Shown piece after piece: positions 6,586-28,100 of a DNA stretch of 56,790 nucleotides. Made by a program: the position numbers and the translations under genes. The notes beneath the pieces were generated by a model, which did not search any database, had not been told where the DNA came from, and saw only the letters and a program-made list of their open reading frames with translations. The stretch spans positions 1-56,790 of the forward strand of contig CAMHQD010000014.1 of assembly GCA_946187345.1 (NCBI GenBank), read 5' to 3'. The stretch comes from an uncultured Porphyromonadaceae bacterium. GTDB taxonomy: Bacteria > Bacteroidota > Bacteroidia > Bacteroidales > Muribaculaceae. Numbering within the stretch: position 1 is the stretch's first letter; each line of letters begins with the position of its first letter.

Positions 6586-7016
6586 GCAGAGGTTTCCGAC
6601 GATTTTATGCCGTGTTCAACAAGATGCACCACGGCAGCGACCCCGACAGCCACAAGTGCGAGCTTGTTCGCCAGTGGACTTGGGGCAGGACCGAGCACTT
6701 GCGCGAGATGACCGAGCGCGAGTATGTGGAGATGTGCGAGGCCCTTGAGCGGCTCGTTGACCCTCGCGGCAAAGAGCGATGGCAAGCCGAGCAGAAGAAG
6801 CTGCGCTCCAGTGCGCTTCACCAGTTGCAGAAGTATGGCATCGACACTACCGACTGGACCAAGGTCAACGCCTTTTGCCAGGATGCGAGGATTGCCGGCA
6901 AGCCCTTCAAGGACCTGAACTTTGACGAACTGGCCGCATTGACGCGCAAGATGCGAGCCATCAACCACAAGCGCGAGAACGAACATATCAAAAACCAATT
7001 ACACATTTCGCAATAG
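6582..7016 (+). CDS. Mu Gp16/GemA-like early regulator
   Basis: A 144-residue protein resembling the DUF1018 (Gp16/GemA) family of transposable phages. The C-terminal part, LQKYGIDTTDWTKVNAFC, then RIAGKPFKDLNFDELAALTRKMRAI, follows the family pattern in which a helical domain ends with a Leu/Arg-rich helix. Mu GemA influences host gene expression and DNA supercoiling; the function here is only assumed to be similar. Gam follows 30 bp downstream, the same neighbourhood as in Mu-like phages. Confidence 0.65.
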   Translation: MSRGFRRFYAVFNKMHHGSDPDSHKCELVRQWTWGRTEHLREMTEREYVEMCEALERLVDPRGKERWQAEQKKLRSSALHQLQKYGIDTTDWTKVNAFCQDARIAGKPFKDLNFDELAALTRKMRAINHKRENEHIKNQLHISQ

Positions 7017-7046
7017 TTTTTATTTATCAATTTAACAACAATTACA

Positions 7047-7565
7047 ATGGCAACAAGAAAGAAAAAGACCATCATCAGCGGTGTGACCCGTGAGGCCGCC
7101 GAGTCAGCCTTTGGCCAGTATGCCAAGGCCGATGCCCAGATCAACAAGATTAACGCCGAGATTGAGTTGGCATGTGCCAAGATCCGCGAGAAGCACGCCG
7201 ACCGTCTCTCCATTCTCGCCGAGGAACGAGACCAGGCCTTTGACACCCTTCAGGCGTTCGCCACCGAGAACCAGGCAGAACTGTTCACCAAGAAGAAGAG
7301 CCTCGACATGACCCACGGCACCATCGGTTTCCGCACCGGCACCCCCAAGTTGAAGACCCTTAAAGGCTTCACATGGGCCAGCGCGGTGAATCTGGTGAAA
7401 GAGTTCCTGCCCTCGTTCATCCGTACCAGCGATGAGGTCGCCAAGGACAAACTTCTCGCTGACCGTGACGAGGAAGGCATGGCCGAGAAGATGGCCAAGT
7501 GCGGCATCCAGGTAGTCCAGGACGAGACCTTCTATGTCGATCCCAAGAAAGAAGATACCGATTAA
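7047..7565 (+). CDS. gam: Gam-like host-nuclease inhibitor
   Basis: A 172-residue protein of the Mu Gam family. The N-terminal half is a long antiparallel coiled coil (~15-85); then comes the typical MTHGTIGFRTGTPKLKT turn (~90-106), and the C-terminal part (MAKCGIQVVQDETFYVDP) completes the DNA-end-binding fold. Mu Gam binds double-stranded ends and blocks exonuclease attack, as Ku does in eukaryotes. It is the last gene of the early operon and is followed by a strong terminator at 7594-7632. The family match is confident. Confidence 0.85.
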   Translation: MATRKKKTIISGVTREAAESAFGQYAKADAQINKINAEIELACAKIREKHADRLSILAEERDQAFDTLQAFATENQAELFTKKKSLDMTHGTIGFRTGTPKLKTLKGFTWASAVNLVKEFLPSFIRTSDEVAKDKLLADRDEEGMAEKMAKCGIQVVQDETFYVDPKKEDTD

Positions 7566-7577
7566 TGGTGTGATGCT

Positions 7578-7590
7578 TTAACAGTGTTAA
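7578..7590. promoter_or_regulatory. Palindrome TTAACAGTGTTAA
   Basis: This differs only in its centre base from the palindrome at 1277-1289. It lies after gam and about 40 bp before the -33 box of the next promoter, a position fitting an activator or shared operator. Confidence 0.45.
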
Positions 7591-7593
7591 GTA

Positions 7594-7632
7594 ATGGGCG
7601 GTAAATCAGCAGTTTGCCGCCCATTTTTCTTT
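7594..7632 (+). terminator. Early-operon terminator
   Basis: ATGGGCGG plus TAAA pairs with TTTG plus CCGCCCAT across a 7-base loop (12 bp including one T-G pair), followed by a run of T interrupted by one C (7624-7632). A typical intrinsic terminator. Confidence 0.8.
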
Positions 7633-7660
7633 GTGGTTACGTCAAAAAACATTATCTTTG
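7630..7660 (+). promoter_or_regulatory. Host-type promoter after gam
   Basis: TTTG at 7630-7633, a 19-bp spacer and TATCTTTG at 7653-7660 match the Bacteroidota consensus exactly; the -7 box is identical to that of the early promoter. The next start codon is only 4 nt beyond the -7 box, so the message may be leaderless. Confidence 0.7.
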
Positions 7661-7664
7661 CAGT

Positions 7665-7895
7665 ATGGCAGTGAGACGAGGTGTGAGTTATCAGAAGCGC
7701 GTGGCGGACATCAACCGGATATATGATGAGCACGTCAAGGACGGGTTGCCCAACAGGGAGATCTGGCGGCGTTTCATCTATCCCATCTACGCCATCAGCG
7801 AGCGCACCTTCTACAATCTGCTCAAGGCGAGTGCCGACCCCAAGAACGACTTGCCCGAGGACACCCAGTTATATATTCAATTTGAATGGCCATGA
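7665..7895 (+). CDS. Small HTH-like protein
   Basis: A 76-residue basic protein from the ATG at 7665. The segment YAISERTFYNLLKAS (~45-60) looks like the recognition helix of a helix-turn-helix. It is the first gene after the promoter at 7630-7660 and overlaps the gpG-like gene by 10 bp. A regulatory role is possible; no family recognised with confidence. The expected transcription start falls on or next to the ATG. Confidence 0.6.
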   Translation: MAVRRGVSYQKRVADINRIYDEHVKDGLPNREIWRRFIYPIYAISERTFYNLLKASADPKNDLPEDTQLYIQFEWP

Positions 7896-8440
7896 GTGGC
7901 ATCGACATCATCATCAAACGCATCCTGCGTGACATCCAGGTTGAACTTGGCGACGAGTTTGACAAGAACTTCGAGCGGCAGGGCTTCTTTTCGCAGTCGT
8001 GGCAGCGCCGCAAGTCACCGACCCGTCCTGGCGGTCACATCCTGGTTGACACCGGCGGCTTGCGCCGCAGCATCAGCAGCAAGGCAGACAGCACCGGCAT
8101 CGTGTTCCAGAGCACGCTGCCATACGCTGCCATCCATAACGAGGGCGGAGAGATCAAGGTGACCCGCAAGATGAAGCGTTACTTCTGGCACAAATACTAC
8201 GAGGCCACCGGCTCCTTCGGCCGCAAGAAAAACGGCCAGCGCCGCAATGACAAGCGAACCGTTCAACTGAGCACCGAGGCCGAGTTCTGGAAGTGGATGG
8301 CCCTGATGAAAGAAGGCAAGAGCATCAAGATCCCCAAGCGCCAGTTCCTGGGTGCCAGTCCCGAGGTCGAGAAAGCCGTGCGTGACATCATCGAAGAGAA
8401 CCTGACAGAATATTTCGAGCACGAATACAATTTACAATGA
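7886..8440 (+). CDS. Mu gpG-like virion morphogenesis protein
   Basis: A 184-residue protein of the phage virion morphogenesis family (Mu gpG, P2 gpS). Diagnostic stretches are HILVDTGGLRRSIS (~53-66), the following TLPYAAIHNEGG (~78-89), and the C-terminal PKRQFLGASPEVEKAV (~150-165). In this family the order LxdTGxLr...YaxiHxxGg...iPxRpflG is conserved. Such proteins complete the tail or join head to tail. ATG at 7886 or 7892 are both possible. The start overlaps the previous gene; the end overlaps the next by 4 bp. Confidence 0.8.
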   Translation: MAMSGIDIIIKRILRDIQVELGDEFDKNFERQGFFSQSWQRRKSPTRPGGHILVDTGGLRRSISSKADSTGIVFQSTLPYAAIHNEGGEIKVTRKMKRYFWHKYYEATGSFGRKKNGQRRNDKRTVQLSTEAEFWKWMALMKEGKSIKIPKRQFLGASPEVEKAVRDIIEENLTEYFEHEYNLQ

Positions 8441-8856
8441 GAAAAGAGATTTACAGAGCCATCTGCGCCGCGTTGCTGGGCATCGACGGCGCCCCGGTCA
8501 AGCATGTTGACCTGTGGAACCACAACGTCGAGTTTATCGAGCAGGAGGAGGCCTGGGACCGCCCGGCTGTGTTTGTCGAGTTCGCCCCCATTGAGTGGCG
8601 TGCCGACAAAGGCGGGTATCACACCCAGGGGACGCTCCGTCTGCACATTGTCACCGATTGGGTGGGACCGCTGAGCCAGGGCGACGAGTCGCTTGACGTG
8701 TTTGACCTGTGCGAGACCGTGTGCCGCGCTGTGGCCGGCTTGAGCGGTGAGCACTTCGGCGCGTTGCGCCTTGTGGGCAGTGACACCAACCACAACCACG
8801 AGGACATCGTTGAGAGCATCGAGCACTTCGCCTACAGTGGCGAGTGGAGTGTGTAA
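8437..8856 (+). CDS. Probable tail completion/terminator protein
   Basis: A 139-residue protein coupled to the gpG-like gene by an ATGA overlap. The fold suggested by its alternation of helices and strands (VFVEFAPIEW, LRLHIVTDW) resembles the small tail-terminator proteins (Mu gp37-like, lambda gpU-like) that cap the tail tube. The match is weak and rests mainly on gene order. Confidence 0.5.
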   Translation: MRKEIYRAICAALLGIDGAPVKHVDLWNHNVEFIEQEEAWDRPAVFVEFAPIEWRADKGGYHTQGTLRLHIVTDWVGPLSQGDESLDVFDLCETVCRAVAGLSGEHFGALRLVGSDTNHNHEDIVESIEHFAYSGEWSV

Positions 8857-8859
8857 GCC

Positions 8860-8890
8860 ATTGCCGTTAGCGATAAAATCCGTAACTTTG
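8860..8890 (+). promoter_or_regulatory. Promoter of the DGR cassette
   Basis: ATTG at 8860-8863, a 19-bp spacer and TAACTTTG at 8883-8890. The avd start codon is 5 nt beyond the -7 box, so the transcript would begin at or next to the ATG. It gives the retroelement its own host-type promoter that can act in the lysogen. Confidence 0.6.
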
Positions 8891-8895
8891 CAGCC

Positions 8896-9381
8896 ATGAA
8901 ACCAAACCAGGCATCTATTTACAGGGAAATCGAGCGGTTGCTGGAGTGGACCATTCCGGTGGCCGACCGTTTGCCCAAGTCCGTATCGTGGAGGGAGCTT
9001 GGCGGGCTGCTTGTCCGCGACTTGAAAGAGTCGCTGGATTTTGTTGTTCTCGCCTTCCAGACTGAGGACAGGCTGGAGCGTCTCGAGTGTCTCAACGGTC
9101 TGGTGATGCGCATGACGTCGGTCAAGACCACGTTCAGGCTCATGCACCGTGTCCGTCGTGACATTTTGAGCCACGGCCAGCATGCCCAGATGCTGGACAT
9201 GATGAATTCCATATCTGACCAGGCTGGAAAATGGCTTCGCAAGACCAAGTACCTCATCGCCGAGGAGCGCCAAGCCGCCGAGCAACCGGCTGCCGTGTTG
9301 CCCGAGCAAAAGCCGGAGCCCCAGGCTCAGGCCGAGCCCAGGCAGCGCACCCTCTTTGACGATGTGGAAGGGTCGCGGTAA
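8896..9381 (+). CDS. avd: DGR accessory variability determinant (Avd)
   Basis: A 161-residue protein directly upstream of the template repeat and reverse transcriptase. Residues ~1-125 are four amphipathic helices (RLLEWTIPVADRLPKS, VRDLKESLDFVVLAF, RLECLNGLVMRMTSVKTTFRLMH, and a last helix around WLRKTKYL), the four-helix-bundle pattern of Avd and related proteins. The tail (~126-161) is Pro/Gln-rich and probably disordered. Known Avd proteins form basic pentamers that bind the RT and the template RNA and are required for mutagenic homing. The host-type promoter at 8860-8890 would transcribe avd, the template and the RT together. Confidence 0.85.
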   Translation: MKPNQASIYREIERLLEWTIPVADRLPKSVSWRELGGLLVRDLKESLDFVVLAFQTEDRLERLECLNGLVMRMTSVKTTFRLMHRVRRDILSHGQHAQMLDMMNSISDQAGKWLRKTKYLIAEERQAAEQPAAVLPEQKPEPQAQAEPRQRTLFDDVEGSR

Positions 9382-9408
9382 CAGACATTCATAGCGATTA
9401 CGGTTGTT

Positions 9409-11043
9409 ATGAATCCTCTTTCATTATTAAACGGGCGTGCTACTGCGCAAGGCGTAGTTAGGAAACGAGTAACGCACGCATCATCGCTCAGTGCTTCCAA
9501 CGCGTACAACATTAATGCAGGGAGCGGCGCCGTCAACAACAACAACAATAAGAACAATTCCAACGGTGTGCGAGCGGTGGTCGCACTTGGTAATGAAGAG
9601 AAATCGGGGTGGATAGATGCCTATTTTGACTGTATCAGGCACAAGCTGACAGCGAAGCAGTGCAACGAGTACCGCATAGAGTTCGAGCGCGACCTGTGGC
9701 GGTTGGTGCTGGAGGTGCATGAGCGCACCTACAAGCCCAGCGAGTCGTTCTGTTTCGTGGTGACGAGGCCCAAACTGCGCGAGATTTTCGCCGCCTCGTT
9801 CCGTGACCGCATTGTGCAACATTGGATAACGCTGCGGCTGGAACCGCTGCTCGAGTGGCGGTTCCGCAGCCAAGGCGATGTATCGTTCAACTGTCGAAAA
9901 GGCTATGGCACACTGCGTGCGGTGCAGACCGCCAAATCCCACATCGAGCGCGTGAGCGAGCGTTACACGCGTGAGGCGTGGGTAGGCAAGATAGACATCA
10001 GCAGTTTCTTCATGAGCATCGACAAAGAGGTGCTGCTGCGTCTTCTGCTGCCATGGCTGCGCGAGAACTACAAAGGTGATGATCTCGAGACCCTGCTGTG
10101 GCTCACCGAGGTCACAGTCAGGCACCAGCCCCAACTGCTGTGTGAGCGTCGCTCGAGCGAGCGGCTATGGGAAGCCCTGCCGGCCAGCAAGAGCCTGTTC
10201 AACATGCCTCCCAATGTGGGCATGCCCATCGGCAACATCACCAGCCAGTTGCTCGCCAATTTCTATCTCTCGTATTTTGATGGCTTCATGCTCGAGGAGT
10301 GTGCATGGAAGGATGCCGGCTATGTGCGTTTCGTCGATGACGCCGTAGTCATCTGCCACGACAAGCAGTTCATCCTTGACCTTCGCAAGAAGGCCACCAT
10401 GTGGCTCAAGAAGCACCTGAGGCTGACCCTGCACAAAGACAAGTTCTACCTGCAGGAGGTTCGCAAAGGTGTGAAGTTTGTCGGCAGCGTGATCAAGCCC
10501 GGTCGGTTATACACCAGCAACCGCACCATCGGCAACATGACCAATGAGGTCGCACGCGCCGAGCGCTTGTGCAAGCACATCCTGGAGGAGGGTCCCACCA
10601 CTGAGTCGCTTGCCGCGCTGAAGCACCACGTGTGCAGCCTAAACTCGTACATGGGTTTCTGCGTGCACGCCTATAGTTACCGCCAGCGTCGGAAGATGTT
10701 CCGCAACGTGCCCAACTTCTGGCAGTGTTGCTACGTCAAACGCCGTTTTACGCTGGTGAAGATCCGCAAGAGATATAGCTACGAACGATATTTAATCAAA
10801 AAAGACTTAGAAGAATATGAGAAGTCAAGGAGAGACCTGCCCCCCGTTGGTGGAAACCCGGCGAGAGATGGGGCAAAACATAAGAACCGTAAACGTGGGC
10901 GCAAGCGCGACCGCCGATGGCTGGGAGTGGATCAGCGTGACCCTGCCTCCGGCAGTGTGGAGTTACAGCGCGATAGTCGATGCACTGGTGACCGAGTGCT
11001 ACCCGCCGGACAAAATGCAGGCGGTAATCAACAACTGCCTTAA
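9409..11043 (+). CDS. DGR reverse transcriptase
   Basis: A 544-residue open frame. Reverse transcriptase motifs are clear: GKIDISSFFMSID (D196, motif A), MPIGNITSQLLANF (272-285), where DGR enzymes have G..xSQ instead of the QGxxxSP of other RTs, and FVDDAVV (308-314; catalytic D310, D311). The core spans ~60-475. It makes cDNA from the template RNA with errors at adenines. Two oddities: the first ~60 codons contain the whole template repeat in frame and no ATG lies in frame between the repeat and the core, so either the repeat is translated or a GTG just inside it is used; and the last ~70 codons (from ~10817) run out of frame through the next gene and look like low-complexity, Arg-rich overprint. 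Confidence 0.92.
   Translation: MNPLSLLNGRATAQGVVRKRVTHASSLSASNAYNINAGSGAVNNNNNKNNSNGVRAVVALGNEEKSGWIDAYFDCIRHKLTAKQCNEYRIEFERDLWRLVLEVHERTYKPSESFCFVVTRPKLREIFAASFRDRIVQHWITLRLEPLLEWRFRSQGDVSFNCRKGYGTLRAVQTAKSHIERVSERYTREAWVGKIDISSFFMSIDKEVLLRLLLPWLRENYKGDDLETLLWLTEVTVRHQPQLLCERRSSERLWEALPASKSLFNMPPNVGMPIGNITSQLLANFYLSYFDGFMLEECAWKDAGYVRFVDDAVVICHDKQFILDLRKKATMWLKKHLRLTLHKDKFYLQEVRKGVKFVGSVIKPGRLYTSNRTIGNMTNEVARAERLCKHILEEGPTTESLAALKHHVCSLNSYMGFCVHAYSYRQRRKMFRNVPNFWQCCYVKRRFTLVKIRKRYSYERYLIKKDLEEYEKSRRDLPPVGGNPARDGAKHKNRKRGRKRDRRWLGVDQRDPASGSVELQRDSRCTGDRVLPAGQNAGGNQQLP
9489..9585 (+). repeat. DGR template repeat (TR)
   Basis: 97 bp matching 39804-39900 at the end of the tail receptor gene. 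All ten differences are at template adenines (9500, 9509, 9535, 9538, 9544, 9545, 9548, 9553, 9556 and 9585), eight to T and two to G; no other base differs. The template is rich in AAC/AAT codons (up to five in a row), so A-mutagenesis can produce many residues without stop codons. The last 28 bases before 9585 (IMH-type, GC-rich) are unchanged. Confidence 0.97.
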
Positions 11044-11647
11044 CAACTTCTTTGCCCCCGAGCACCTGTCGGAGTACCAGGCATTACAAGAGTGGCGCAA
11101 GACCGCCAAGCAGTACGCCCGTGAGGCTATGACCTGGGCAGCCGAGCAAGGCATTGAGCCTGTGGGCTTGCCTGATGAAGATGGCTCCCATGACAATGGC
11201 GAGCTCACGCCCGACGGTATGTTGATGCTACAGCAGGCCGTAAAGCTGCTGAAAGGTCAGACTGCAGCCCTGTCCGATGAGCAAGCCATCGAGGTTCCCG
11301 CGTTGTTCCCTACATGGGCGAGCAAGATGGGTCAGACGGTTGCTGTGGACGAGCGCCTCTATTATGACGGTAGGTTATGGAAAGTGCTGCAGACTCACAT
11401 CGTGCAAGCCGACTGGACACCGACGGCAGCAGCCGCATTATTTACCGAGGTCGTTGCCCAGGGCGAAGGCGAGCCCGAGCTTGGCACGCTTGACAATCCC
11501 ATTCCTTACAGTGGCAACATGGCCCTTGAGCAGGGCAAGTATTACTCACAGGGCGGGGTGACCTACCTGTGCATCAGAGACACCGGCAATCCCGTGTACC
11601 ATGACCTGAGTGCCCTGGTTGGGCTATATGTGCAGGTTATAGAATAG
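10817..11647 (+). CDS. CBM-like phage protein downstream of the RT
   Basis: A 276-residue protein. The N-terminal ~110 residues (core YPPDKMQAVINN, then ALQEWRKTAKQYAREAM) are a domain seen beside tail-fibre genes in Bacteroidota prophages. The C-terminal half has two units resembling carbohydrate-binding module 5/12: YYDGRLWKVLQTH...ADWTPT and YYSQGGVTYLCIRD, with aromatic residues spaced as in sugar-binding modules. It may help the phage hold surface glycans or decorate the tail. The start could be 10817 or the in-frame ATG at 10871; in either case it overlaps the RT frame by about 170-230 bp. Confidence 0.6.
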   Translation: MRSQGETCPPLVETRREMGQNIRTVNVGASATADGWEWISVTLPPAVWSYSAIVDALVTECYPPDKMQAVINNCLNNFFAPEHLSEYQALQEWRKTAKQYAREAMTWAAEQGIEPVGLPDEDGSHDNGELTPDGMLMLQQAVKLLKGQTAALSDEQAIEVPALFPTWASKMGQTVAVDERLYYDGRLWKVLQTHIVQADWTPTAAAALFTEVVAQGEGEPELGTLDNPIPYSGNMALEQGKYYSQGGVTYLCIRDTGNPVYHDLSALVGLYVQVIE

Positions 11648-11660
11648 CAAAGGAGGGGGC

Positions 11661-11791
11661 AAATAAAAAGCCCCCAGCCCTGCAATCTGTCGTTCTACTT
11701 ACAAAATTACACCCACATCGGGAGAGGCTGGAGGCATGAGCCTTCTTCCTCCCGAAATGGGTGTAATTTTATTTTTGTAAGTAGAACACCG
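11661..11791 (-). ncRNA. Candidate structured RNA in the 11648-11814 gap
   Basis: An inverted repeat pairs 11692-11715 with 11758-11787 (24 bp with a 6-base bulge), then 11719-11725 with 11748-11754, then a 5-bp apical helix. On the minus strand a -7-like box TACCTTTG (11799-11792) lies just upstream, and the far end gives GGCTGGGGGC followed by TTTTTATTT (11679-11661). GGCTGGGGGC can also pair with GCCTCCAGCC in the apical loop (9 of 10), giving a pseudoknot or a terminator-like alternative. No good -33 box was found. A plus-strand 3' structure of the upstream gene is the alternative. Confidence 0.4.
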
Positions 11792-11814
11792 CAAAGGTAC
11801 AAAATATTTTTGAA

Positions 11815-12057
11815 ATGACACTATTTGAGGCTTTATCAATCAACAAAGAGATGCTCCACCGGCTGCATGAGTTCGGTGCCAAGCCCGATGACTGCCGTTA
11901 CATCGACCTCTACCGCGACTACCAGGTGATGCGCGAGAGGGGGGAGAAAGTGACCTATATCGTCACCGTGCTGAGCGAGCGGTATCATGTGAGTGAGCGC
12001 AAGGTCTATAGCGTGGTGAAACGCTTCGGGCAGAACTGCACGCTGGATGCAGTGTGA
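11815..12057 (+). CDS. Mor/C-like transcription activator
   Basis: An 80-residue protein. Residues ~25-70 (RYIDLYRDYQVMRERG then VTYIVTVLSERYHVSERKVY) match the end of Mor/C-type activators, with a final helix-turn-helix (LSERYHVSERKVYSVVKRF). In Mu, Mor switches on the middle promoter and C the late promoters, so this gene is a candidate activator of the terminase and head-tail operons, which lack good host-type promoters. Mor is normally about 130 residues, so this would be a short version. TATTTTTG at 11805-11812 abuts the ATG but has no matching -33 box. Confidence 0.5.
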   Translation: MTLFEALSINKEMLHRLHEFGAKPDDCRYIDLYRDYQVMRERGEKVTYIVTVLSERYHVSERKVYSVVKRFGQNCTLDAV

Positions 12058-12107
12058 TTGCTGCCATCTGTGCCGCACGGTTGGTGATAAAAACCGACCT
12101 TTGCTGC

Positions 12108-12944
12108 ATGGAAACGAAAAAACTATACCTTTCGGCACCGCTTCCTTTCGTGGGTCAGAAGCGGAACTTCGCCAAGCCGTTCATGCAGGTGCTCGAGCAG
12201 TACCCTGACGGCACCACCTTTGTTGACCTGTTCGGCGGCAGCGGCTTGCTGTCGCACATCGCCAAGCACCAGAAGCCCAACAGCAAGGTCGTGTATAACG
12301 ACTATGACAACTACCGCGAGCGACTGGAGCGCATTCCCGAGACAAATGAGTTGCTTGCCCGGCTGCGTGATATTACCGCTGGCATTGAGAGGAGGTCGCC
12401 CATCAAGGGCGAGGCACGACTGCGCGTGATAGATGCCATTGCCGCCCATGAGGCGAAATATGGCAGTGTGGACTACATCAGCCTGTCGCCCTCTATCCTG
12501 TTCTCAATGAAATACAAACTGAGCCTCGAGGAACTGAAAAAAGAGGTGTTTTATAACAAGATCCGCACCACCGACTTTGCCCCTGCAGGTGATTATCTGG
12601 ACGGGCTGACCATCACCAGTGCCGACTATCATGAGGTGTTTGAGCGATACAAGGACGAGCCCGGTGTGGTGTTCCTGGTTGACCCGCCCTACCTGAGTAC
12701 CGAAGCCGGAACCTACAAGATGTATTGGAAACTGAGCGACTACCTTGATGTGCTGAACGTGCTGCGTGACCACCGCTTCATCTACTTCACCAGCAACAAG
12801 TCGAGCATCGTTGAGTTATGCTCCTGGCTGGGCAAGAACCGTGACCTGGGCAATCCCTTTGCCGGCTGTCATGTGGTGGAGTTCCATGCCCAGATGAACT
12901 ACAATGCCACCTATACCGACATGATGATTTATAACGCCGCTTGA
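12108..12944 (+). CDS. DNA adenine methylase (D12 class, Dam-like)
   Basis: A 278-residue protein from the ATG at 12108. Motifs in order: PFVGQKRNF (12-20, motif X), DLFGGSGLLS (40-49, AdoMet-binding motif I) and DPPYLS (192-197, catalytic motif IV), as in D12-class N6-adenine methyltransferases. It would protect phage DNA or modify host sites. An upstream in-frame start at 12054 overlaps the previous gene; CTTTGC just 5 bp before the ATG resembles the -7 boxes of the other short-leader phage genes. It sits next to a nucleotide-modifying enzyme, suggesting a DNA-modification module. Confidence 0.88.
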   Translation: METKKLYLSAPLPFVGQKRNFAKPFMQVLEQYPDGTTFVDLFGGSGLLSHIAKHQKPNSKVVYNDYDNYRERLERIPETNELLARLRDITAGIERRSPIKGEARLRVIDAIAAHEAKYGSVDYISLSPSILFSMKYKLSLEELKKEVFYNKIRTTDFAPAGDYLDGLTITSADYHEVFERYKDEPGVVFLVDPPYLSTEAGTYKMYWKLSDYLDVLNVLRDHRFIYFTSNKSSIVELCSWLGKNRDLGNPFAGCHVVEFHAQMNYNATYTDMMIYNAA

Positions 12945-12969
12945 ACGGCATTAAAACCACATTAGAGCC

Positions 12970-13608
12970 ATGAATAAGTATCACCAAATCCTTAGCAAAG
13001 TATTGGACCAGGGCAAGACTCAGACCAATAAAAAGGGCAGCATCCGCTACCTGCTGAATGAGCCGCTGCACCTGACACCCGCCGACCTGCTCGATATATT
13101 TGAGAGTCATGGCATCGCCCGCAAGAAGTTGAAGAGCGAGTTGCGCCTGTTCATGCAGGGCGAGCGTCAGGTGGAAAAATACCGAGACGTGGGCATCAAC
13201 TGGTGGGATTACTGCGGATCGATCCTGGTCAACAGTTACCCGACCTATTTGGAGAAGTTGCCGCCTCTTCTTGCCAGGATCAACCGCGAGAAGCGCAACA
13301 GCAAGAACTACGTCCTGTTCTTGGGCGAGACCAATGCCGAGAGCAACCAGGCCCCATGCCTGAGCCTGGTGCAGTTTCAGATTGATGACGGTGAATTGGT
13401 GCTGAGCGCCTATCAGCGAAGCAGCGACGCCAACCTGGGACTTCCGGCTGACATCTACCACCTGTACCTGATGGCCCGTCAGATAGAATTGCCGTTGAAG
13501 TCGATAACGCTGTTCCTGGGCAACGTCCACATCTATGAGAACAACATCGAGCGGACGCGCGAGCTGCTTGCCGGCAACGAGGACGTGCGGTTTGATTTGA
13601 ATGTGTGA
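12970..13608 (+). CDS. Thymidylate-synthase-family protein, possibly dCMP-specific
   Basis: A 212-residue protein, shorter than bacterial ThyA (about 264). The core is recognisable: APCLSLVQFQI (128-138; catalytic C130), YQRSSDANLGLPADIY (148-163) and GNVHIYENN (184-192), matching ThyA PCH, YQRS.D..LG.P.N and H.Y.NH. The Asn that ThyA uses to recognise the uracil ring is Asp here (D161 in LPAD). The same change is known in T4 dCMP hydroxymethylase and confers dCMP specificity. I therefore infer dCMP methylation or hydroxymethylation, not dUMP methylation. The His after the catalytic Cys is Leu, and the N-terminal folate-binding part is reduced, so activity is uncertain. Confidence 0.7.
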   Translation: MNKYHQILSKVLDQGKTQTNKKGSIRYLLNEPLHLTPADLLDIFESHGIARKKLKSELRLFMQGERQVEKYRDVGINWWDYCGSILVNSYPTYLEKLPPLLARINREKRNSKNYVLFLGETNAESNQAPCLSLVQFQIDDGELVLSAYQRSSDANLGLPADIYHLYLMARQIELPLKSITLFLGNVHIYENNIERTRELLAGNEDVRFDLNV

Positions 13609-13610
13609 TG

Positions 13611-14363
13611 CTATGGGATCATGGCGAGCTCGTCGCGCGTGAGCGTCAGTTTAAGACGCTCACGCGCGGCAGCGCGTTCCGCGGCAGCGCGTTCCGCGGC
13701 AGCGCGTTCGCTGAGCAAGAAGCCGCCACCAAATAATGATTTCTTGACACGGCGGAGCGCCTCGATATTGGTTACCTCTGCGCACTCGTCTTTACGGACA
13801 GAGAAGTCGATGCCTCGCTGGTTGAGTTTGCCCAGGAGTGCAAGAGTGATAAGATTGTCTGGGTATTCATATATGATTGGCTGGCCTCGTGTCGGCTTTT
13901 TTGATGCCTTGCGGATGTCCTCGGCCAACTTGGGCGCAGTCATCAGGCGGTAGTCTTTAATGATGTTAGTTGTAAATGAGGTTCGCACCAGTGCACCATT
14001 GTCATAGGTGACGTCTGCCATCGTGGCAACATAGCACACGTCCGCACCTGCGACGCGCTGGGTAAGTCCCGGTGCGAAGATAAAGAAATCTATATCATTT
14101 GCCAGGAACCAGCGCACAATCTTGCTGTATATTGAGAACGGAGGGTTGTCAATGACAATGCAGCCGTCTGGATAATCGCACTCAGTGAAGTCGGCACCTG
14201 GCCAGAATGGGCGGACGATAAGTCGCCCATCAAGCGGTGTTATGCCATTGACGTACTCGAGCACGACATCATAGACCGCTTTGGGTGTATAGCAATCGTC
14301 GGTGGTCTTTTTCGGTTTGAACTTCTCAACAAATTCGTCGTAATCTTGAAATAAGGTGGCCAT
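13611..14363 (-). CDS. Phage DNA methyltransferase-like protein (NPPF motif)
   Basis: A 250-residue protein. IVIDNPPFSIYSKI (69-82) contains NPPF, the catalytic motif of amino-methyltransferases acting on adenine or glutamine; the N-terminal YTPKAVYDVVLEYV and the following RPFWPGADF fit the AdoMet-binding region. It resembles small phage adenine-specific methyltransferases. The C-terminus contains three Ala/Glu/Arg units (AERAA repeated) coded by a 15-bp tandem repeat at 13666-13710. It is the last gene of the leftward block and converges tail to tail with 12970-13608, leaving 2 bp between them. Confidence 0.65.
   Translation of the reverse strand: MATLFQDYDEFVEKFKPKKTTDDCYTPKAVYDVVLEYVNGITPLDGRLIVRPFWPGADFTECDYPDGCIVIDNPPFSIYSKIVRWFLANDIDFFIFAPGLTQRVAGADVCYVATMADVTYDNGALVRTSFTTNIIKDYRLMTAPKLAEDIRKASKKPTRGQPIIYEYPDNLITLALLGKLNQRGIDFSVRKDECAEVTNIEALRRVKKSLFGGGFLLSERAAAERAAAERAAARERLKLTLTRDELAMIP
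13666..13710 (-). repeat. 15-bp tandem repeat, three copies
   Basis: The unit GCGGCAGCGCGTTCC occurs three times (13666-13680, 13681-13695, 13696-13710; the last copy differs at one base). It codes for three in-frame AERAA-type units in the methyltransferase. Copy-number change would lengthen the protein by five residues without breaking the frame. Confidence 0.85.
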
Positions 14364-14550: not shown

Positions 14551-14638
14551 ATTGCTTATTAAAAAATAAGTATTACCTTTGCAATATCCAATTTGGTGAG
14601 GTCGGGGAGCCCTTGGGTCCGACTTCGCTTTTTTTATG
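14551..14638 (+). ncRNA. Promoter-terminator pair: candidate ~50-nt RNA
   Basis: On the plus strand ATTG (14551-14554), 19 bp and TACCTTTG (14574-14581) form a host-type promoter. About 20 nt on, GTC/GAC, GGA/TCC and CCC/GGG pair in one hairpin (14602-14624 region), followed by TTCGCTTTTTTT. The transcript would start near 14588, end near 14638 and contain no gene. It runs opposite to its neighbours. Possibly a small regulator or simply a terminator for opposing transcription. Confidence 0.35.
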
Positions 14639-15992
14639 GAAAATCGAAAATCTTAATTTCAAGGCCTTTTGCGCTATTGATGATACAAACAATGTGGTGT
14701 AATTTTATTTCCATGTTTGTTTGTCGTACCATGTATTCATAGCCTTTTGTTATTTTCTCAGGTGCAAACATGGTTGGATCATCGAAATACATACAGAGTG
14801 TGTCTGCCATTTCATGCACGTCAGTCCTTGCATTAAACTTGACGAGTTGTTTATTCTTTTCCCTTATAGCGGCACCATAAAAGTCCTTGTTTTTTGTGAT
14901 TGACTTAATGTCCATGCGTACACCATCAAGAATCATGTCAAGCGAACTTAGCCTGTTGCCGTCTCGCCCTTTCTTCTGCTCGTCGCAGAGGATGATACTA
15001 TGGCCACAGTCGAAGAGCTGGTCAACCAATTTTTGCTCAAGTCTAAAACCATCATCAGTTCCTGTATTGTGACCGCGATGGATAGCTCGTAGCGCCCCGG
15101 TCTCAGGGTTGAATTCTACGGTGATGTAGCGACTATCCTTTGAAAGACGGTCATACAACTTTCTGTTCCGTTCAATGCGCTCCCGTTCTGACTTCTTAGT
15201 TCTGCCCTCGTAGCATTGCCGAACGAGGCGGCATGCGGCACAAAGGTCATTGTCTGGAATGTATGCCAGGTTGGTCTTGCCCTGGGCGATGTCGCAGTCG
15301 CGGCACCGACGTATGGTGTAGGGGTTATAGTCTGGCATGGCCTTGCCTTGCTTGCCCGGATTGAAGCGGAAGATGCCGCGCGTGTCCTTTTGCAGTGCCT
15401 CCTCGCCTCGGGCATAAGCCTCGGCAGGATCGGTTGTCGGGTACTTGGTCTTGCGGACCTGTGCGACTGTGCAGCGGCAGTTCCATCCATTGGGCGGGTA
15501 ATATGATTCCCAAAATGGGTCGGATGGGGGTAGCGTGACCCCATCGAGAGCCGCGTGCTCCGGTCTCACCTTGTCATCATGCTGTGTGCGGTACTGGAGA
15601 TTATATCTGTCGCCGTCCGCCTCGATTTGCTCCCACTTGGCAGCCATGTCGGCCGAGGCGTTGACGAAGTTGTACTCGGCACGCAGATAGTTGACGTTGT
15701 AAGTCTCGTCGATGGCATGCACCTCGTTGAGGAACGTGTCGAACGGCTTGCGCTCGCCGTTCTCACCGATGAGCGACGGAAAAGCCTCGTTCAGTTCGTG
15801 AAACGCCTTGAAGCCCGAGAAGATGAAATTAGACCGCTCCAGCCGTTGGCGCATGGCATCGGACATCGCCACCTGCCGCATCGACGAGTTGAGCGCGTCG
15901 GCGTGTGTGCTGATGAAGTCGGTCACCTCCGGCTCGGCCATCACCTCGACCCGCAGCATCGCCCCCTCCTGGCGGTAGAGCGCGTGCATCAT
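14634..15992 (-). CDS. F-like minor head protein with C-terminal nuclease-like domain
   Basis: A 452-residue frame from the first ATG. Residues ~140-180 (EHAALDGVTLPPSDPFW, YYPPNGWNCRCTVAQV) are the hallmark of Mu F/SPP1 gp7 minor head proteins. A Cys cluster (C230, C233, C251, C254, C260) may bind zinc. The C-terminal ~150 residues are different: SLDMILDGVRMDIKSI (350-365) looks like the D...D-x-K core of PD-(D/E)xK nucleases, as in CdiA-type toxin ends; such toxin fusions on F-like proteins are known. The frame is open and protein-like for 44 more codons upstream of the ATG with no usable start, running into the end of the portal gene at a slippery site (16124-16130). It may therefore be made as a portal-F fusion by -1 frameshifting. 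Confidence 0.75.
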   Translation of the reverse strand: MMHALYRQEGAMLRVEVMAEPEVTDFISTHADALNSSMRQVAMSDAMRQRLERSNFIFSGFKAFHELNEAFPSLIGENGERKPFDTFLNEVHAIDETYNVNYLRAEYNFVNASADMAAKWEQIEADGDRYNLQYRTQHDDKVRPEHAALDGVTLPPSDPFWESYYPPNGWNCRCTVAQVRKTKYPTTDPAEAYARGEEALQKDTRGIFRFNPGKQGKAMPDYNPYTIRRCRDCDIAQGKTNLAYIPDNDLCAACRLVRQCYEGRTKKSERERIERNRKLYDRLSKDSRYITVEFNPETGALRAIHRGHNTGTDDGFRLEQKLVDQLFDCGHSIILCDEQKKGRDGNRLSSLDMILDGVRMDIKSITKNKDFYGAAIREKNKQLVKFNARTDVHEMADTLCMYFDDPTMFAPEKITKGYEYMVRQTNMEIKLHHIVCIINSAKGLEIKIFDFP

Positions 15993-16095
15993 TCCCTCGA
16001 AAGCCTTGCCAACACGGTCACGGATGCGCTGCTCCAGTTCCTTGCGCTGTGATGCGAAGGTGGCGGTGCCCAGTATTTCGGCGTAACGCTGGTGC

Positions 16096-16130
16096 AGCCC
16101 CGCGTAGTCGGCGGGGCTTAGGCGAAAAAA
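16096..16130 (-). promoter_or_regulatory. Putative -1 frameshift signal between portal and F
   Basis: Read on the minus strand: slippery heptamer T TTT TTC (16130-16124) in the portal frame, a 5-nt spacer, then a perfect 8-bp hairpin AGCCCCGC / GCGGGGCT (16118-16111 with 16103-16096, 7-nt loop). The portal stop TAA lies at the start of the hairpin. After a -1 slip the frame is open into the F-like gene. Confidence 0.55.
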
Positions 16131-17461
16131 GGGTGCACATTCGCCGCCTGTAGGCTGTTTTGCTCGCCAGTGGGCATTTCCTCACCTTCGGGCTTTTCAT
16201 CGCCCTGTGGCGGCTCTGGGGGCGCGACAGGCGCATTGTTGCGCCGCTTGCCCACCGGCATGCCGTATTTGTCCTCGAAGTAGGACGGCTCCACATCATA
16301 GTTGTTGAGCACCATCGTCTCGTATGCGACCTGCTGCTCGGGAGTGTAGTCGATGGAGTAGTCCCAGTCGAAGCGCAGCCCCTTGAGCGGGAAGCCCATG
16401 GTGATGAGTCGTGGGATGAGTTGTGTGTTCACTAAGTCACGGATCAGGTCGCAGTCAGCCTCCACCAGGTTCTCAAACACCTTGAGGTGCGTTTCGGACT
16501 GGCTGAGGCTTGAACCGTCCTCGATGGTCATGGTCTGGCCGATGATGAGTTTCGACAGTTCAGAGTTGGCGCGGTCAATGCGTCGGTCATAGACATTGAA
16601 GGCGTCGCCCTTGGACGACTCCACAATTTCAATCTCTGTCCCTTCAGGCATCACTCCCGACTGCGTGCTGCCCATGAGGTCGAGCACCTTCTGGAGCCGG
16701 CTGATGTCCTTCTCGTCGCGTGAGGTGGTCTTGGCGATGCGCATGGGCATGCCGAAGATCTCGGTGAACGTGTCCCAGAAGCCCATGGCGTTCTTCTTGG
16801 GTATGGTCTGCTGTGCCGCCTTGAGGTAGAGCCCGAGGTCGGTGGGCTGTCCGGCTTCGATGACCTGGTTGGCAAACGGTGCCTCATGGTAGTCGATGCC
16901 CGACTTCCAGTCATCGCCCATGTTGCGGACCACACGGTGGTATTCTGGAATGACATGGCGGCGGTCGATGAGTGTCACCCCGTCGAGCGTGAGCAGTCCG
17001 TTCTCGGTGCTGATGACATCGCCCAGTTCGATGAGTGAGTGTCCCCAATAGATGCTGTCGAGCGCATAGCGCATGAGTTGCTTGAACCAGGCCTGGTCGA
17101 AGTAGTCCATTGCCTCCTCGTTCTCGTCGCCGTCGGGTGTGACCAGTTTGAACGAGCGCGAGAGCACGAAGCCCTTGCGCTGCTCTACGCAGCCCGAGAG
17201 GTGCGCGTCAATCTCCACGTCGCGGTACACCTGATAGAGGCGCAGTCGGTCGGGGCTGTCCACATTGATGGCCATCTGCCAGGCCCTGCGCCAGTCGCCC
17301 AGATCCTGGCGCGTGAGGCTGTCGGTGGTGCGCTGAATGTCCACCATGATCTTGCGCAACTTCTTGCGGTCGGAGTTGCGTGCCAGGTTAAAATCACCGT
17401 GCGGCGTGTGCAGCACATACTTGCCGCTGAGGCGGTCTATGAAGTCTTGAAAAAGTCCCAT
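16118..17461 (-). CDS. DUF935-family portal protein (Mu gp29-like)
   Basis: A 447-residue protein of the Mu-type portal family. Recognisable stretches are EIDAHLSGCVEQRKG (~83-97), the SIYWGHSLIELGDV strand (~136-149), FGMPMRIAKTTSRDE (~236-250), the helix LIIGQTMTIEDGSSLSQSETH (~305-325), and a Pro/Glu-rich C-terminus. The portal forms the dodecameric ring through which DNA enters the head. It follows the Gp36-like gene by 4 bp. Its last codons contain a slippery T6C run with a stable hairpin, suggesting that some ribosomes continue into the F-like protein. Confidence 0.9.
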   Translation of the reverse strand: MGLFQDFIDRLSGKYVLHTPHGDFNLARNSDRKKLRKIMVDIQRTTDSLTRQDLGDWRRAWQMAINVDSPDRLRLYQVYRDVEIDAHLSGCVEQRKGFVLSRSFKLVTPDGDENEEAMDYFDQAWFKQLMRYALDSIYWGHSLIELGDVISTENGLLTLDGVTLIDRRHVIPEYHRVVRNMGDDWKSGIDYHEAPFANQVIEAGQPTDLGLYLKAAQQTIPKKNAMGFWDTFTEIFGMPMRIAKTTSRDEKDISRLQKVLDLMGSTQSGVMPEGTEIEIVESSKGDAFNVYDRRIDRANSELSKLIIGQTMTIEDGSSLSQSETHLKVFENLVEADCDLIRDLVNTQLIPRLITMGFPLKGLRFDWDYSIDYTPEQQVAYETMVLNNYDVEPSYFEDKYGMPVGKRRNNAPVAPPEPPQGDEKPEGEEMPTGEQNSLQAANVHPFFA

Positions 17462-23923: not shown

Positions 23924-24370
23924 ATGGCATACAGAGATGGAACCGACCTAATTTTGGGCTTTGTCATTGACGAGACGTTCTGGCCCTTTGGCCACTCTAC
24001 CGGTTGCAAGATCAGCGACTCGAGCGAGACCGGCGAGCGCGTGACCAAAGAAGCGTCAAGCGGCAAGTGGAAAGAGAAATATATCAAGAGCCTTGCCGAG
24101 AGCATCCAGGCCGACGGCTTTGTGTACGATGGTGACGATGCAGCGCAGAAGGTGGGCTTGCCCACCCTGAAAGAGGCCTGGCTTGCCGCCAAGCCCGTCA
24201 AGGCCCGCTACGCGTACCGCGGCGAGGAGAACACCAAGTATTACGAGGGCGACTATGTCATCACCTCACTGGAGAACGACGGCCAGGCCGGCGACGACGA
24301 GAAGTACAGCATCACGCTCGAGAACAGTGGAGCCATCACGCCTCATGTGCCCGCTGGCAATAACGGTTAA
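23924..24370 (+). CDS. Major tail tube protein
   Basis: A 148-residue, beta-rich protein placed before the frameshifted tail chaperones, where siphoviruses keep the tail tube gene. The N-terminal GFVIDETFWPFGHSTGCKISDSSET and central KAGKWKEK-like stretch fit the TP901-1-type tube fold. Its stop and the next start share a base (TAATG at 24368-24372). Confidence 0.7.
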   Translation: MAYRDGTDLILGFVIDETFWPFGHSTGCKISDSSETGERVTKEASSGKWKEKYIKSLAESIQADGFVYDGDDAAQKVGLPTLKEAWLAAKPVKARYAYRGEENTKYYEGDYVITSLENDGQAGDDEKYSITLENSGAITPHVPAGNNG

Positions 24371-24675
24371 TGACGATGAAGACCAAGATCATCATAGGAG
24401 GCAAGGAATATCCGTGCCGCGTGACCATGGGTGCGCTGCTTCGCTTCAAGCGCGAGACCGGCCATGACGTGAGTACCCTGAACGAGGGTGACGTGGAGGA
24501 ACTGCTAACGCTGCTGTACCTGTGCGTGCTGAGCGCGTGCAAGGCCGACGGTGTGGAGTTTGGGCTGACCCTTGAGGAGTTTGCCGACTCGCTGGATGCC
24601 CAGGAGATGAACTCCTTTTATGCCAGCATGGCATCGGGCGCTGAAAAAAAAACGGTGAAGAAGGCGGCGAAGTAG
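24370..24675 (+). CDS. Tail assembly chaperone (lambda G-like)
   Basis: A 101-residue, mostly helical protein (KTKIIIGGKEYPCRVT, then ALLRFKRETGHDVSTL). Near its end (24644-24652) nine A form the slippery site A AAA AAA in frame, before the short tail KTVKKAAK and stop. A fraction of ribosomes should shift -1 into the frame that contains 24720-25001, giving a G-T-type fusion of about 210 residues. G and GT coat the tape measure protein and recruit tube subunits during tail assembly. Confidence 0.85.
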   Translation: MTMKTKIIIGGKEYPCRVTMGALLRFKRETGHDVSTLNEGDVEELLTLLYLCVLSACKADGVEFGLTLEEFADSLDAQEMNSFYASMASGAEKKTVKKAAK

Positions 24676-25001
24676 CCGACATCGAGGAACTGTTAGGACT
24701 TGCGCTGGGGTGCATCGGGATGAGCATTGATGACTTTGCCCGGTGCACCCCGGCTGAGTTTTGGCAGGTTGCCGAACAGTGGCGCAAGCGAGCTGAGGCT
24801 GTTGAGCGTGGCGAGTGGGAGCGCAGCCGCTGGCTGGCGATGTGCATGCTGCAGCCGTGGAGCAAGAAACAACTCAAGGCAGAGGACGTGTGCGTGTTCC
24901 CATGGGAGAAGAAACAAGAAACGCCGCCCGAGCGGCAACTGAGTGCCGAGGAGCAGCGTGCGCGTTATGAGGCAGCAAAGAGGCGATACGGCATCGGTTA
25001 A
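24651..25001 (+). CDS. Tail chaperone T domain, reached by -1 frameshift
   Basis: The -1 frame after the A9 run at 24644-24652 reads on without a stop through an acidic linker (NGEEGGEVADIEELLGLALG) into the protein with SIDDFARCTPAEFWQV and an ATG at 24720. Residues continue with charged helices to 25001. The fusion with the G-like part is about 210 residues. The downstream frame could also start alone at 24720 (93 residues), but the slippery run and open linker are the normal tail-chaperone arrangement. Confidence 0.8.
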   Translation, partial: NGEEGGEVADIEELLGLALGCIGMSIDDFARCTPAEFWQVAEQWRKRAEAVERGEWERSRWLAMCMLQPWSKKQLKAEDVCVFPWEKKQETPPERQLSAEEQRARYEAAKRRYGIG

Positions 25002-25117
25002 CGTTGCTCTTTGCCGTGACGTTTCCCGTGTTCAGCCTCATCCCATTGGCCTTTGAAAATGAAATAGCCAAGGATACCGCCAACAATCATACATAATATG
25101 GCAATATATGGACCCAT
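24998..25117 (-). CDS. 39-residue membrane protein, antisense in the tail operon
   Basis: An ATG at 25117 opens a 39-codon frame on the minus strand: residues 3-21 form a hydrophobic span (PYIAILCMIVGGILGYFIF), then a charged tail (KGQWDEAEHGKRHGKEQ). The gap between the tail chaperone and tape measure holds nothing else. A near-perfect host-type promoter points into it (25150-25180) with a ~25-nt leader. A gene with its own promoter inside a late operon has the form of a moron expressed by the lysogen; a role in superinfection exclusion is possible but not shown. Confidence 0.55.
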   Translation of the reverse strand: MGPYIAILCMIVGGILGYFIFKGQWDEAEHGKRHGKEQR

Positions 25118-25180: not shown

Positions 25181-28100
25181 ATGGACAAGACGGTAAAATT
25201 CAAGATTGAACTTGAAACCAATGGTCAGAAGGTGCTTCATGATGTGACTGTAAGTACAGGTGAACTTCGTGACGCGCTTGTTGAGGTTGGCAAAGAGGCG
25301 AAGCTGAGTGCGGAGAAGATGACCTCATTGGCATCTACCAGCATGATGGTTGATGCGCTTACCAATGTGGTCGATCGTCTATGCTCGTCCGTAAATGGCC
25401 TTGCCGATGACTGGAACTCATTTGACAAAGGAATGCGAGCCGTGAACACGATGGCCGGCAAGAATGCTGAGGACTTGGGCAAACTTAAAGACCAGGTTGC
25501 CGCACTTGGCAATGAGATACCCAAGACCAAAGAGGAGTTGTCTGCCGGTTTGTACCAGGTCATCAGTAACGGAGTCCCTGAAAATAACTGGATAGCATTT
25601 CTTGAGCAGAGTGCTAAAGCCAGTGTGGGTGGTATCGCCGACCTTGGTCAGACTGTTACTGTCACCAGCACCATCATTAAGAACTATGGTCTCGAGTGGG
25701 ATAAAGCAGGAGAGATTCAGGATAAGATACAGATGACCGCCAAGAACGGTGTGACCAGTTTCGAGCAGTTGGCGGCTGCCTTGCCTCGTGTGAGCGGTAA
25801 CGCTGCCACGCTTGGCGTGAGTATCGATGAATTGATGGCCACTTTTGCAACCCTTACCGGTGTATCTGGTAACACCGCCGAAGTCAGCACCCAACTTGCC
25901 GCTGTTTTCACCGCTCTTGTCAAACCATCGAGTGAAGCCACGAAGATGGCACAGGAGATGGGCATACAGTTCGATGCTGCAGCCATCCGTGCGCAGGGTG
26001 GCATGCGAAACTTCCTGACCCAGTTGGATGCCGACATCACCAAGTATGCCAGTGCCCACAACATGCTCAAGGAGGAAATATACGGCAAGTTGTTCGGTAG
26101 TGCTGAGTCGTTGCGTGCTCTCACCCCGTTGACCGGTGAGCTCGCCAGCAAGTTCAGCGAGAACGTTGACGCGATGGCTGGCAGCGAGGGCACCATTGAG
26201 CAAGCCTTCGAGAATATGGCTGGCAGTGGTGAGAGCGTCACCCAGATGCTGCGTAACCAGCTCAGCACGATGTTTGACTGGGCGGGTAGTATTGCCAGCA
26301 CCATACAGCCGTACCTTACATTTATAGCCATCGGTGGGCAGGCAATAACCGGCATCATGCTGCTCGGCAAAGCCCTCGGAACCGCGACGGCAGCTATTAG
26401 ATCCTTTGCAGTGGCTCAACGATCAGGTGCAGCGGCTACCGCTTTGGCAACCCTGCATGAGCGCATCTCCACCATTGCCCGTAACATGCTGACTGCTGCC
26501 ACTGGCTCCGCCACAGTGTCGACCGCCGCATTGACAGTGGCCACTATAGCCTTATATGCTGCTCTCACCATGGGTCTGTCGGCTGTGATTACTGGTCTTG
26601 TTGCATTGTTCTCCAGCCTCAGTGATGAGACAGGAGAACTGGATGACAAGACTCGAAGCCTCATTGATGCCGAAGAACGTGCAAAACGCGAGAATGAGGC
26701 TGTCGAGCAAATGCGTCAGCAAGAGCAAAAGACTTTGGAGAATGTGCGTGCAGAATTGGAGTTGAACATCGCCAAGACAAAAGACTTCAAAGGATCTAAA
26801 GCCGATGAAAAGAAGATTGTCGATGAACTGAACAACACCTATGGGGCGACGATGGGCTATTTCTCCAGTGTCGCCGATTGGTATAAAGCACTTGTCGCCA
26901 ACAGTGAGGCCTACTGCCAGCAGATGATCATCGAGGCCCGCACTCGAATGCTTGCCAATCAGATTGCACAGAAAGAGCAGGAGAATTATGACATCACCCA
27001 CAACGCTGATGGTTCAACAAGACGTTACAGTACAAGAAAGAGAAGCCATACTGAAACAGATTGGGATAGAACATATCAGGGCGCCGATGGTATGACTTAT
27101 TATGGGACAAAGGTTGTCTATGATGATTCTGATTTAGACAAAGCGCAAAAGGCCTATGATGCTAATAATGCGTTTATACAAAGCAGAAAGAAACAAATGC
27201 AGGATCTTGCTCGTCAGCGTACAAAAATGCCAGTCACGGGCAGCCCCCACCGTCCAGCTGCACCGACAGGTGGCGGCGCAGGATCGGGCGGTAGTTCCAA
27301 CAGCGATAAGAACAAAAACAACACCAACACCGATAAGGAGAAGACGCGCCAGCAGGAACTCAACAAGCTCATCAGTGATGCGCAGAACGAGTATGTCGAT
27401 GCCAGCGAGACCGAGCGTGCAGAGATAGCCAAGAAGATTGTCGCTTACCGTGCCGAACTCGACCTGATAGAGACCCTGCAGAAGAAGGCGATGGTTCCCG
27501 AGGAACTGAAAACCATCCAGGACATCGACGATGCCCTCGCATACCAGCAAGCCCTGCGCAAGCACGCCAACAAAGAGAATATTGCCGGCATTGATGCCGA
27601 GATTGACAAGCTGGAACAGCAACGCGCCGAGATGCAGCGTCCCGCCCAACTCAAATCATTGGAGGACATCGACGCTGAGATCACCTACCAGCAGAGCCTA
27701 CGCAAACGTGCCACCGCCGAGACGATAGGCGGAATAGATGCCGAGATAGAGAGGCTGGAAGGATTGCGTAAAACCTTGGAGCGTTCTGGCCACAAGGAGT
27801 TGGCCATAAAAGAGATTGCAACCTACGAGCAACTTGACAAGGAACTCGCCTATTATACTGACCTGCTCAACACCTCGAGTGAGAAAGACCGTGCCAGCAT
27901 ACAGCAACGCATCAATGCGCTGAATGAGTTACGCCAGACTTGGGATGAGGCTCTTGCCGAGTTGAAGAAGCCAGGCGAGATTGCCACGCTTGATACGATG
28001 GAGAAACTTGATGAAGCCATCACCTACTATCAGACCAAGCAAAAGAAAGCCACCGGCGAGGAGGTTGACAATATAGGCAAGACGATTGCGGCATTAGAGC

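Follow-up and report, generated by a model that had tools for sequence, protein, structure and literature searches.

How is a phage Mu F-like head protein translated when its reading frame opens without a start codon? The question is raised by a 56,790-nucleotide (nt) stretch of DNA from an uncultured Porphyromonadaceae bacterium (contig CAMHQD010000014.1 of assembly GCA_946187345.1; the whole stretch is here called the window), in which a portal gene and a MuF-like (F) gene overlap on the minus strand. With a probability of roughly 0.9, judged from sequence evidence, the portal/F junction is a programmed -1 ribosomal frameshift site that sets the ratio of portal to portal-F fusion. Comparison establishes that, in many phages of Bacteroidota, selection acts on the signal, its phase, the RNA stem and coding in the -1 frame.

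The portal gene (Portal_Mu; 16118..17461, minus strand, 447 amino acids [aa]) defines the 0 frame and ends with a TAA codon at 16118-16120. It passes the curated threshold of PF06074 (E 2.9e-75, 254.1 bits against a cut-off of 23.9) and matches PDB chain 9khx_X, named “Portal protein” (E 4.8e-9); an NCBIfam search with the same protein returned nothing at E up to 0.1. On the minus strand its 3′ end reads GTG CAC CCT TTT TTC GCC TAA, so that the heptamer T_TTT_TTC (16124..16130) lies in portal phase and conforms to the X XXY YYZ pattern. A 5-nt spacer, GCCTA (16119..16123), includes the first two bases of the portal stop codon, the last base of which is also the first base of a stem-loop (16096..16118, minus strand). 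The stem is a perfect 8 bp, AGCCCCGC (16118-16111) with GCGGGGCT (16103-16096), closed by a 7-nt loop (16104-16110), and is presumed to be stimulatory on the basis of its fold and of covariation among 50 distinct sequences. The junction RNA folds at -18.9 kcal/mol (z -2.6), with 3 of 200 shuffled versions equally good, and has no Rfam match at E up to 1.

The F gene, entered via the -1 frame, spans 14634..16124 on the minus strand, encodes 496 aa past the slip and ends with a stop at 14634. Its product passes the curated threshold of PF04233 (E 2.9e-15, 57.4 bits, cut-off 29.6) and matches TIGR01641, phageSPP1_gp7 (E 2.9e-13, 50.2 bits, cut-off 39.65). From the CGC codon at 16124 through 15995 the F frame holds 44 codons with no ATG, GTG or TTG, and the first start is the ATG at 15992, which leaves a start-free part at 15993..16123 on the minus strand. 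Upstream of the slip the frame is open back to a TGA at 16184-16182, also without a start. The preliminary description of this locus is thus borne out by the coordinates, both in the layout that it gave for the heptamer, spacer, hairpin and stop at the stem base and in its account of an F frame devoid of starts on either side of the slip.

In the proposed mechanism, most ribosomes would terminate at the portal stop to give the 447-aa, 51-kDa portal. The downstream stem would hold the ribosome at T_TTT_TTC, where a fraction would slip both tRNAs(Phe) back by one base, bypass the stop and continue into F, yielding a 942-aa, 108-kDa portal-F fusion with the predicted tryptic peptides EKPEGEEMPTGEQNSLQAANVHPFFR and LSPADYAGLHQR. 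We infer both slippage in cells and its efficiency.

Close relatives were selected by portal sequence alone, with a portal-protein scan from which the best 80 of 170 viral loci, together with the window, made a set of 81; three that run off their contigs were dropped. In 74 of the remaining 78, an in-phase TTTTTTC precedes the portal stop by exactly 10 nt. Three others (L016, L017, L049) carry it in phase 43 nt before the stop, with a stem in between, and in the last (L044) the portal frame is broken upstream and TTTTTTC is present further on. The codon that contributes the first T of the heptamer is variously CCT, CGT, AGT, TCT, AAT, GAT, CAT, GCT or GGT (8 amino acids), a descriptive tally of sites already chosen as TTTTTTC, for which the unselected figure is 77/78. 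The comparison that the preliminary description had proposed, for a conserved slippery sequence set among differing codons, therefore comes out in favor of frameshifting, and the loss of heptamer and hairpin from close relatives, which it had named as evidence to the contrary, was not borne out. Loci chosen for the motif itself were kept out of every conservation test. Among the matches listed for such pattern-selected stretches, 59 of 117 from genomes have both portal and F on the motif strand (3 have the portal only, 3 F only and 52 neither), as do 109 of 120 from viral sequences (5 portal only, 1 F only, 5 neither).

The same signal is found in named phages. Hankyphage p00, described as widespread in the human gut and the subject of published virion mass spectrometry (PMC12135933), carries TTTTTTC followed by a GCCCCG/CGGGGC stem, after which comes a portal stop overlapped by an ATG for F; the 28 hankyphage-like loci that reach the junction carry TTTTTTC in 27 cases and TTTTTTT in one. 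TCUEAP3 has TTTTTTC, a stem read by eye (GCTCCTCA/TGAGGAGC) and the portal stop in the loop, with F annotated as beginning 275 nt later. In Peternella_1, A-runs occur at the portal end and the annotated F begins 98 nt later, and FPSV-S1 and lotta8-2 have ordinary F starts just past the portal stop. The preliminary description cautioned that a homopolymer misassembly or a natural indel in the A6 run might underlie the arrangement; these comparisons bear on that caveat, and equally on a sequencing error or an indel of the A6/T6 run that disables the gene. A homopolymer is indeed present and the finding came from one contig, but the recurrence of the arrangement in the 74 portal-selected loci, and of the heptamer with F in the -1 frame in p00 and TCUEAP3, excludes this explanation for practical purposes.

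The survey of the RNA stem took in 114 loci, selected by portal, in which TTTTTTC is in phase and F occupies the -1 frame; they represent 93 unique contexts. A layout of 5-nt spacer, 8-bp stem and 7-nt loop (5/8/7), with at least 7 of the 8 pairs formed, occurs in 60 of them. Of 90 unique TTTTTTC sites, 78 are followed by a stem of 7 bp or longer that includes 5 or more GC pairs; for random positions within these loci the figure is 60 of 1,716. Covariation was assessed in 50 distinct sequences of the 5/8/7 layout (61 rows), in which 99.8% of cells are paired; since rows were chosen for this layout, that percentage arises partly by construction, whereas the double changes do not. Changes on both sides affect 40 stem cells, against a shuffled mean of 10.5, a count that none of 500 shuffles reached; the covariation score of 0.292 falls to 0.030 or lower when the stem is slid. 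In five loci (L043, L066, L076, L041, L064) the loop-encoded residues around the DY of SPxDYxGLH vary and the stem is kept, so selection seems to be stronger on the stem than on these residues. Four others (L011, L037, L042, L052) retain FFRLSP and GCCCC past the slip but lack the usual stem, and the F N terminus continues there with a different module; in these, a stimulatory element of another kind may reside further downstream.

That the FFRLSP codons stay when the N-terminal module following them differs, as in the latter loci, might suggest that the conserved DNA is a recombination or packaging site whose coding phase is incidental. Set against this are the compensatory changes in the stem, which alter the encoded residues in step (SPADYAG, SPSDYEG, SPTDYVG, SPSDYLG), and the occurrence of a different heptamer at the same junction in other lineages. 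Such a site is accordingly considered extremely unlikely to account for the conservation.

The F frame behaves as coding sequence ahead of any start codon. In alignment A1, the portal stop alternates between TAA and TGA (with a few TAG), and the -1 codon overlapping it is leucine (CTG, CTA or TTA) in 61 of 61. Past the stem, mean column entropy across 61 loci is 0.91, 0.56 and 1.46 bits at the first, second and third F-frame codon positions. For 35 loci with a first start at least 90 nt past the heptamer, 19 pairs fell within the identity range used; codons with a single change were synonymous or nonsynonymous in a ratio of 46:25 in the F frame, versus 22:67 and 14:62 in the other frames. The -1 frame is open in the window and, in relatives, is by these patterns under protein-level selection before any start.

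A rival explanation is that translation of F is separate, begun by termination-reinitiation or at an internal or non-standard start codon, with the hairpin serving only to tune this initiation. Some ATG, GTG or TTG is mostly found downstream in F, the ATG of hankyphage p00 overlaps the portal stop, and a Met-Met motif is found in the F frame of 52 of 75 loci, with position 48 being Met in at least 90% of alignment A2. The position of the first start, however, is not common to the loci: among the 78 portal-selected loci, F lacks a start before the portal stop in 76 (exceptions L044 and L047), and the first F-frame starts past that stop are scattered from +14 to +164 nt in 77 (L014 ends before one). 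A consistent F start in homologs, which the preliminary description had also named as evidence to the contrary, was thus not found, although the ATG of p00 qualifies that result. The 20 nt preceding the Met-Met motif have an A+T content of 0.47, the same as the F body, versus 0.64 before the first ATG of the portal, and by this measure the context of the motif is not initiation-like. In addition, the first F starts of six loci with A-type sites (L387, L388, L390, L399, L351, L389) lie 335-677 nt downstream, and for 14 of 133 loci the MuF match has already begun before the first start is reached. Separate translation does not explain why the frame is conserved as protein ahead of any start, and it leaves the conserved in-phase heptamer unexplained; it is regarded as quite unlikely.

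The frameshift reading extends beyond close relatives. A Pfam-profile search of Bacteroidota genomes detected the portal in 44 of 395 genomes of a phylum sample, 26 of 198 of a host-family sample and 20 of 395 of a class sample (the samples overlap), and 19 phage records (L318-L321, L425-L439), some from other phyla, were added; four loci (L410 and L416-L418) were superseded by the longer L440-L443. The resulting 126 portal open reading frames (ORFs) comprise 85 with F as a separate ORF, 7 fused to F in frame, 32 without F and 2 that run off. Across the 85 two-ORF pairs, the portal bodies contain 87 in-phase heptamers over 29,361 codons, whereas the last 60 nt, amounting to 1,700 codons, contain 85. 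A test with this fixed 60-nt window took in 84 of these pairs, portal ORFs shorter than 150 aa having been dropped. Where F is in the -1 frame with no start by +12, the heptamer is present in 49 of 49 pairs, versus 12 of the remaining 35, namely 11 of 19 with F in -1 and a near start, 1 of 11 with F in +1 (lotta8-2, A AAA AAT) and 0 of 5 with F in frame 0. With heptamers counted within the overlap, Fisher's test gives p = 2.9e-8 when every locus counts and 1.4e-5 when the loci are grouped into 51 clusters by 70% portal identity.

The heptamers at portal/F junctions are of several kinds, which points to convergence: besides T TTT TTC there are A AAT TTT, G GGA AAG and, within A-runs, A AAA AAG or A AAA AAA. 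All 5 of 5 viral relatives of L387, a portal of the A type, have A AAA AAG, and RcapMu has A AAA AAA with no near F start. No heptamer is seen in Mu, B3, Suso, Alteromonadaceae B23, Vibrio 1.028 and FP_Mushu, whose F starts lie no further downstream than the portal stop. A quick tree of 70 of 161 portals, in which four “unclear” portals were not counted, requires a minimum of 11 switches between the frameshift, fused and separate-start states; its support is uneven and several branches are long.

This diversity is relevant to the proposal that RNA polymerase slips on a homopolymer to give mixed mRNAs, from which the same fused protein would result. T6 and A7-A10 runs occur at many sites. T6 is a short run for polymerase slippage, and the G_GGA_AAG and A_AAT_TTT sites keep the X XXY YYZ phase without a long homopolymer; the stem at its fixed 5-nt spacing in 60 of the 93 unique contexts likewise speaks against slippage during transcription, which is judged highly unlikely overall. 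Polymerase slippage must be taken seriously for the lineages whose portal gene ends in long A-runs (L318, which is Peternella_1, L347, L387-L390, L399 and L494-L498); many of them have weak downstream structure, and they are candidates for transcriptional rather than ribosomal slippage.

In a further group the arrangement is reversed. Portal-F is a single 852-aa ORF in Porphyromonas gingivalis phage010a, and among Porphyromonas-type fused ORFs from viral contigs an in-phase TTTTTTC and a GC stem at the junction occur in 18 of 19, the exception being L457. The -1 frame at the junction of this clade stops after 17-26 codons. Because portal-F is encoded in the 0 frame and the -1 frame is short, a slip there would give the portal alone, by a reverse logic, and we read the fused clade, from its sequences, as making the same two products the other way round. 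In E. coli dnaX a -1 slip likewise leads to an early stop and a shorter product; the gene and the purpose differ. Of the loci given for the fused clade and the hankyphage-like group, 53 of 58 have GCCC-type stems, in 15 kinds whose pairs change in step, a descriptive count from a list pre-filtered for GCCC/CCCC and GGGGC arms. In the fused set of 20 loci, all 15 unique -1 tails carry PH 1 to 8 residues before the stop. Synonymous to nonsynonymous changes in 15 non-independent pairs stand at 18:18 for the -1 frame, 18:41 for the 0 frame and 4:29 for +1, and are suggestive only. Five of the seven in-frame fusions of the Bacteroidota sample (L348 and L440-L443) have no FF at the junction.

Several observations weigh against the frameshift reading. 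Most of the loci are akin to each other, so locus counts overstate independence. No F lies within 1.5 kb of 32 of the 126 portal ORFs; these were left out of every table, and 2 of them have a heptamer in the last 50 nt. The heptamer is also found in those 11 of 19 -1 pairs that have a near F start. Five of the 93 unique TTTTTTC contexts lack a stem of at least 6 bp, some others have long loops or spacers, and several A-type sites have weak structures only. Lastly, an ATG or GTG for F frequently adjoins the portal stop in loci of the hankyphage type, so that some phages may make free F as well.

Frameshifting in tailed phages is textbook for tail chaperones. The tail-assembly chaperone 17.5/17.5* of SPP1 is described as frameshifting at UUUUUUC (PMC6316719), and PaMx73 is described as having a site of the tail-chaperone type with the same heptamer class (PMC4378225). 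The junction in the window resembles such frameshifts, of which lambda gpG/gpGT is an example, in its heptamer class, with the very same heptamer in some of them, and in the prediction of two products that share an N terminus in a set ratio. It differs in joining portal and MuF genes of the head vertex, rather than a G/GT pair just upstream of the tape measure gene, in overlapping the stop codon of a full-length structural protein and in its covarying stem. The nearest prior hint is a GenBank note on RcapMu (JN190960), which remarks on the MuF start and states of the portal that a “possible +1 frameshift would allow readthrough.” Like the window, that phage is found here to have an in-phase heptamer, in its case A AAA AAA, placed 10 nt ahead of the portal stop, and its F lies in the -1 frame; the note concerns one genome and the other direction and, as shown, names no slippery signal. 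Apart from this hint, portal/MuF frameshifting was not found in searches of the open full-text literature (most subscription papers and all bioRxiv-only preprints lie outside this scope), in agreement with the preliminary description, whose author knew of no published portal-F fusion of this kind. Taken together, the available portions of PMC12135933, PMC10367356, PMC5576092, PMC4378225, PMC2628397, PMC6316719, PMC8601537, PMC5488378, PMC8776804, PMC11699363, PMC7911831 and PMC3483164 contain tail-gene frameshifting and none at portal/MuF.

What purpose such a ratio would serve is suggested by the F protein itself, in which the MuF domain is central and the C-terminal module variable. Among 43 F proteins, one from the window and 42 from viral loci within a set of 62 non-redundant relatives, the heads form one BLAST cluster and the C termini eight clusters without mutual BLAST similarity; CdiA_C is matched in 8 of the 43 and LPD3 in 7. 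In the F protein of the window, Phage_Mu_F is the sole Pfam match at E 0.001, its own C-terminal tail being without a match, and a PDB sequence search with it gave nothing at E up to 1. MuF polymorphic toxins of temperate phages, including those of Bacteroidales, are described as a MuF body with interchangeable C-terminal domains (Jamet 2017, PMC5576092; Bxa, PMC11699363). The common F body and its interchangeable C termini, as judged by the eight tail clusters and the CdiA_C matches, fit this description. In the available text of the two articles, MuF is a separate gene downstream of the portal, fusion to the portal is not mentioned and the word “frameshift” gives 0 hits.

In SPP1, gp7 (MuF) is reported to reach the capsid via the portal, in one to two copies (PMC5576092, PMC6316719). 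The SPP1 gp6/gp7 pair is a portal/MuF pair like that of the window, where F matches the gp7 family, but gp7 is a separate protein that binds the portal non-covalently, and here covalent fusion to some portal subunits is predicted. By analogy, the portal-F fusion could be a covalent version of the gp6-gp7 association, and its purpose may be a portal ring with few F-bearing subunits, by which the minor head protein and its effector-like module would be loaded in a small, fixed number. The clade with reversed coding keeps the site and the stem, and other lineages have evolved different heptamers, which suggests that the ratio itself is preserved. It seems probable, with fair room for doubt, that Mu-like and related phages of Bacteroidota build a mixed portal ring in which a polymorphic MuF effector is grafted by frameshifting onto a minority of subunits, the ratio itself being selected. 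If so, the low-copy entry of F and its effector domains into capsids would be explained, the mixed ring serving as covalent loading of a small, fixed effector dose at the packaging vertex. Portal stoichiometry would become testable, and annotations of F starts would be corrected, as for the gaps after the portal of TCUEAP3 and Peternella_1.

Two other features of the window are on its plus strand. A reverse transcriptase (9409-11043; RVT_1, E 5.4e-13) with an Asn-rich N terminus is possibly part of a diversity-generating element; no direct repeats of at least 45 nt were found at 3000-14000. A second candidate -1 site lies within 24370-25002, where an A9 run (24644-24652) occurs near the end of a 101-aa ORF and the -1 frame is open downstream, ahead of a 1272-aa ORF at 25181-28999; this site looks like the usual tail-chaperone G/GT frameshift.
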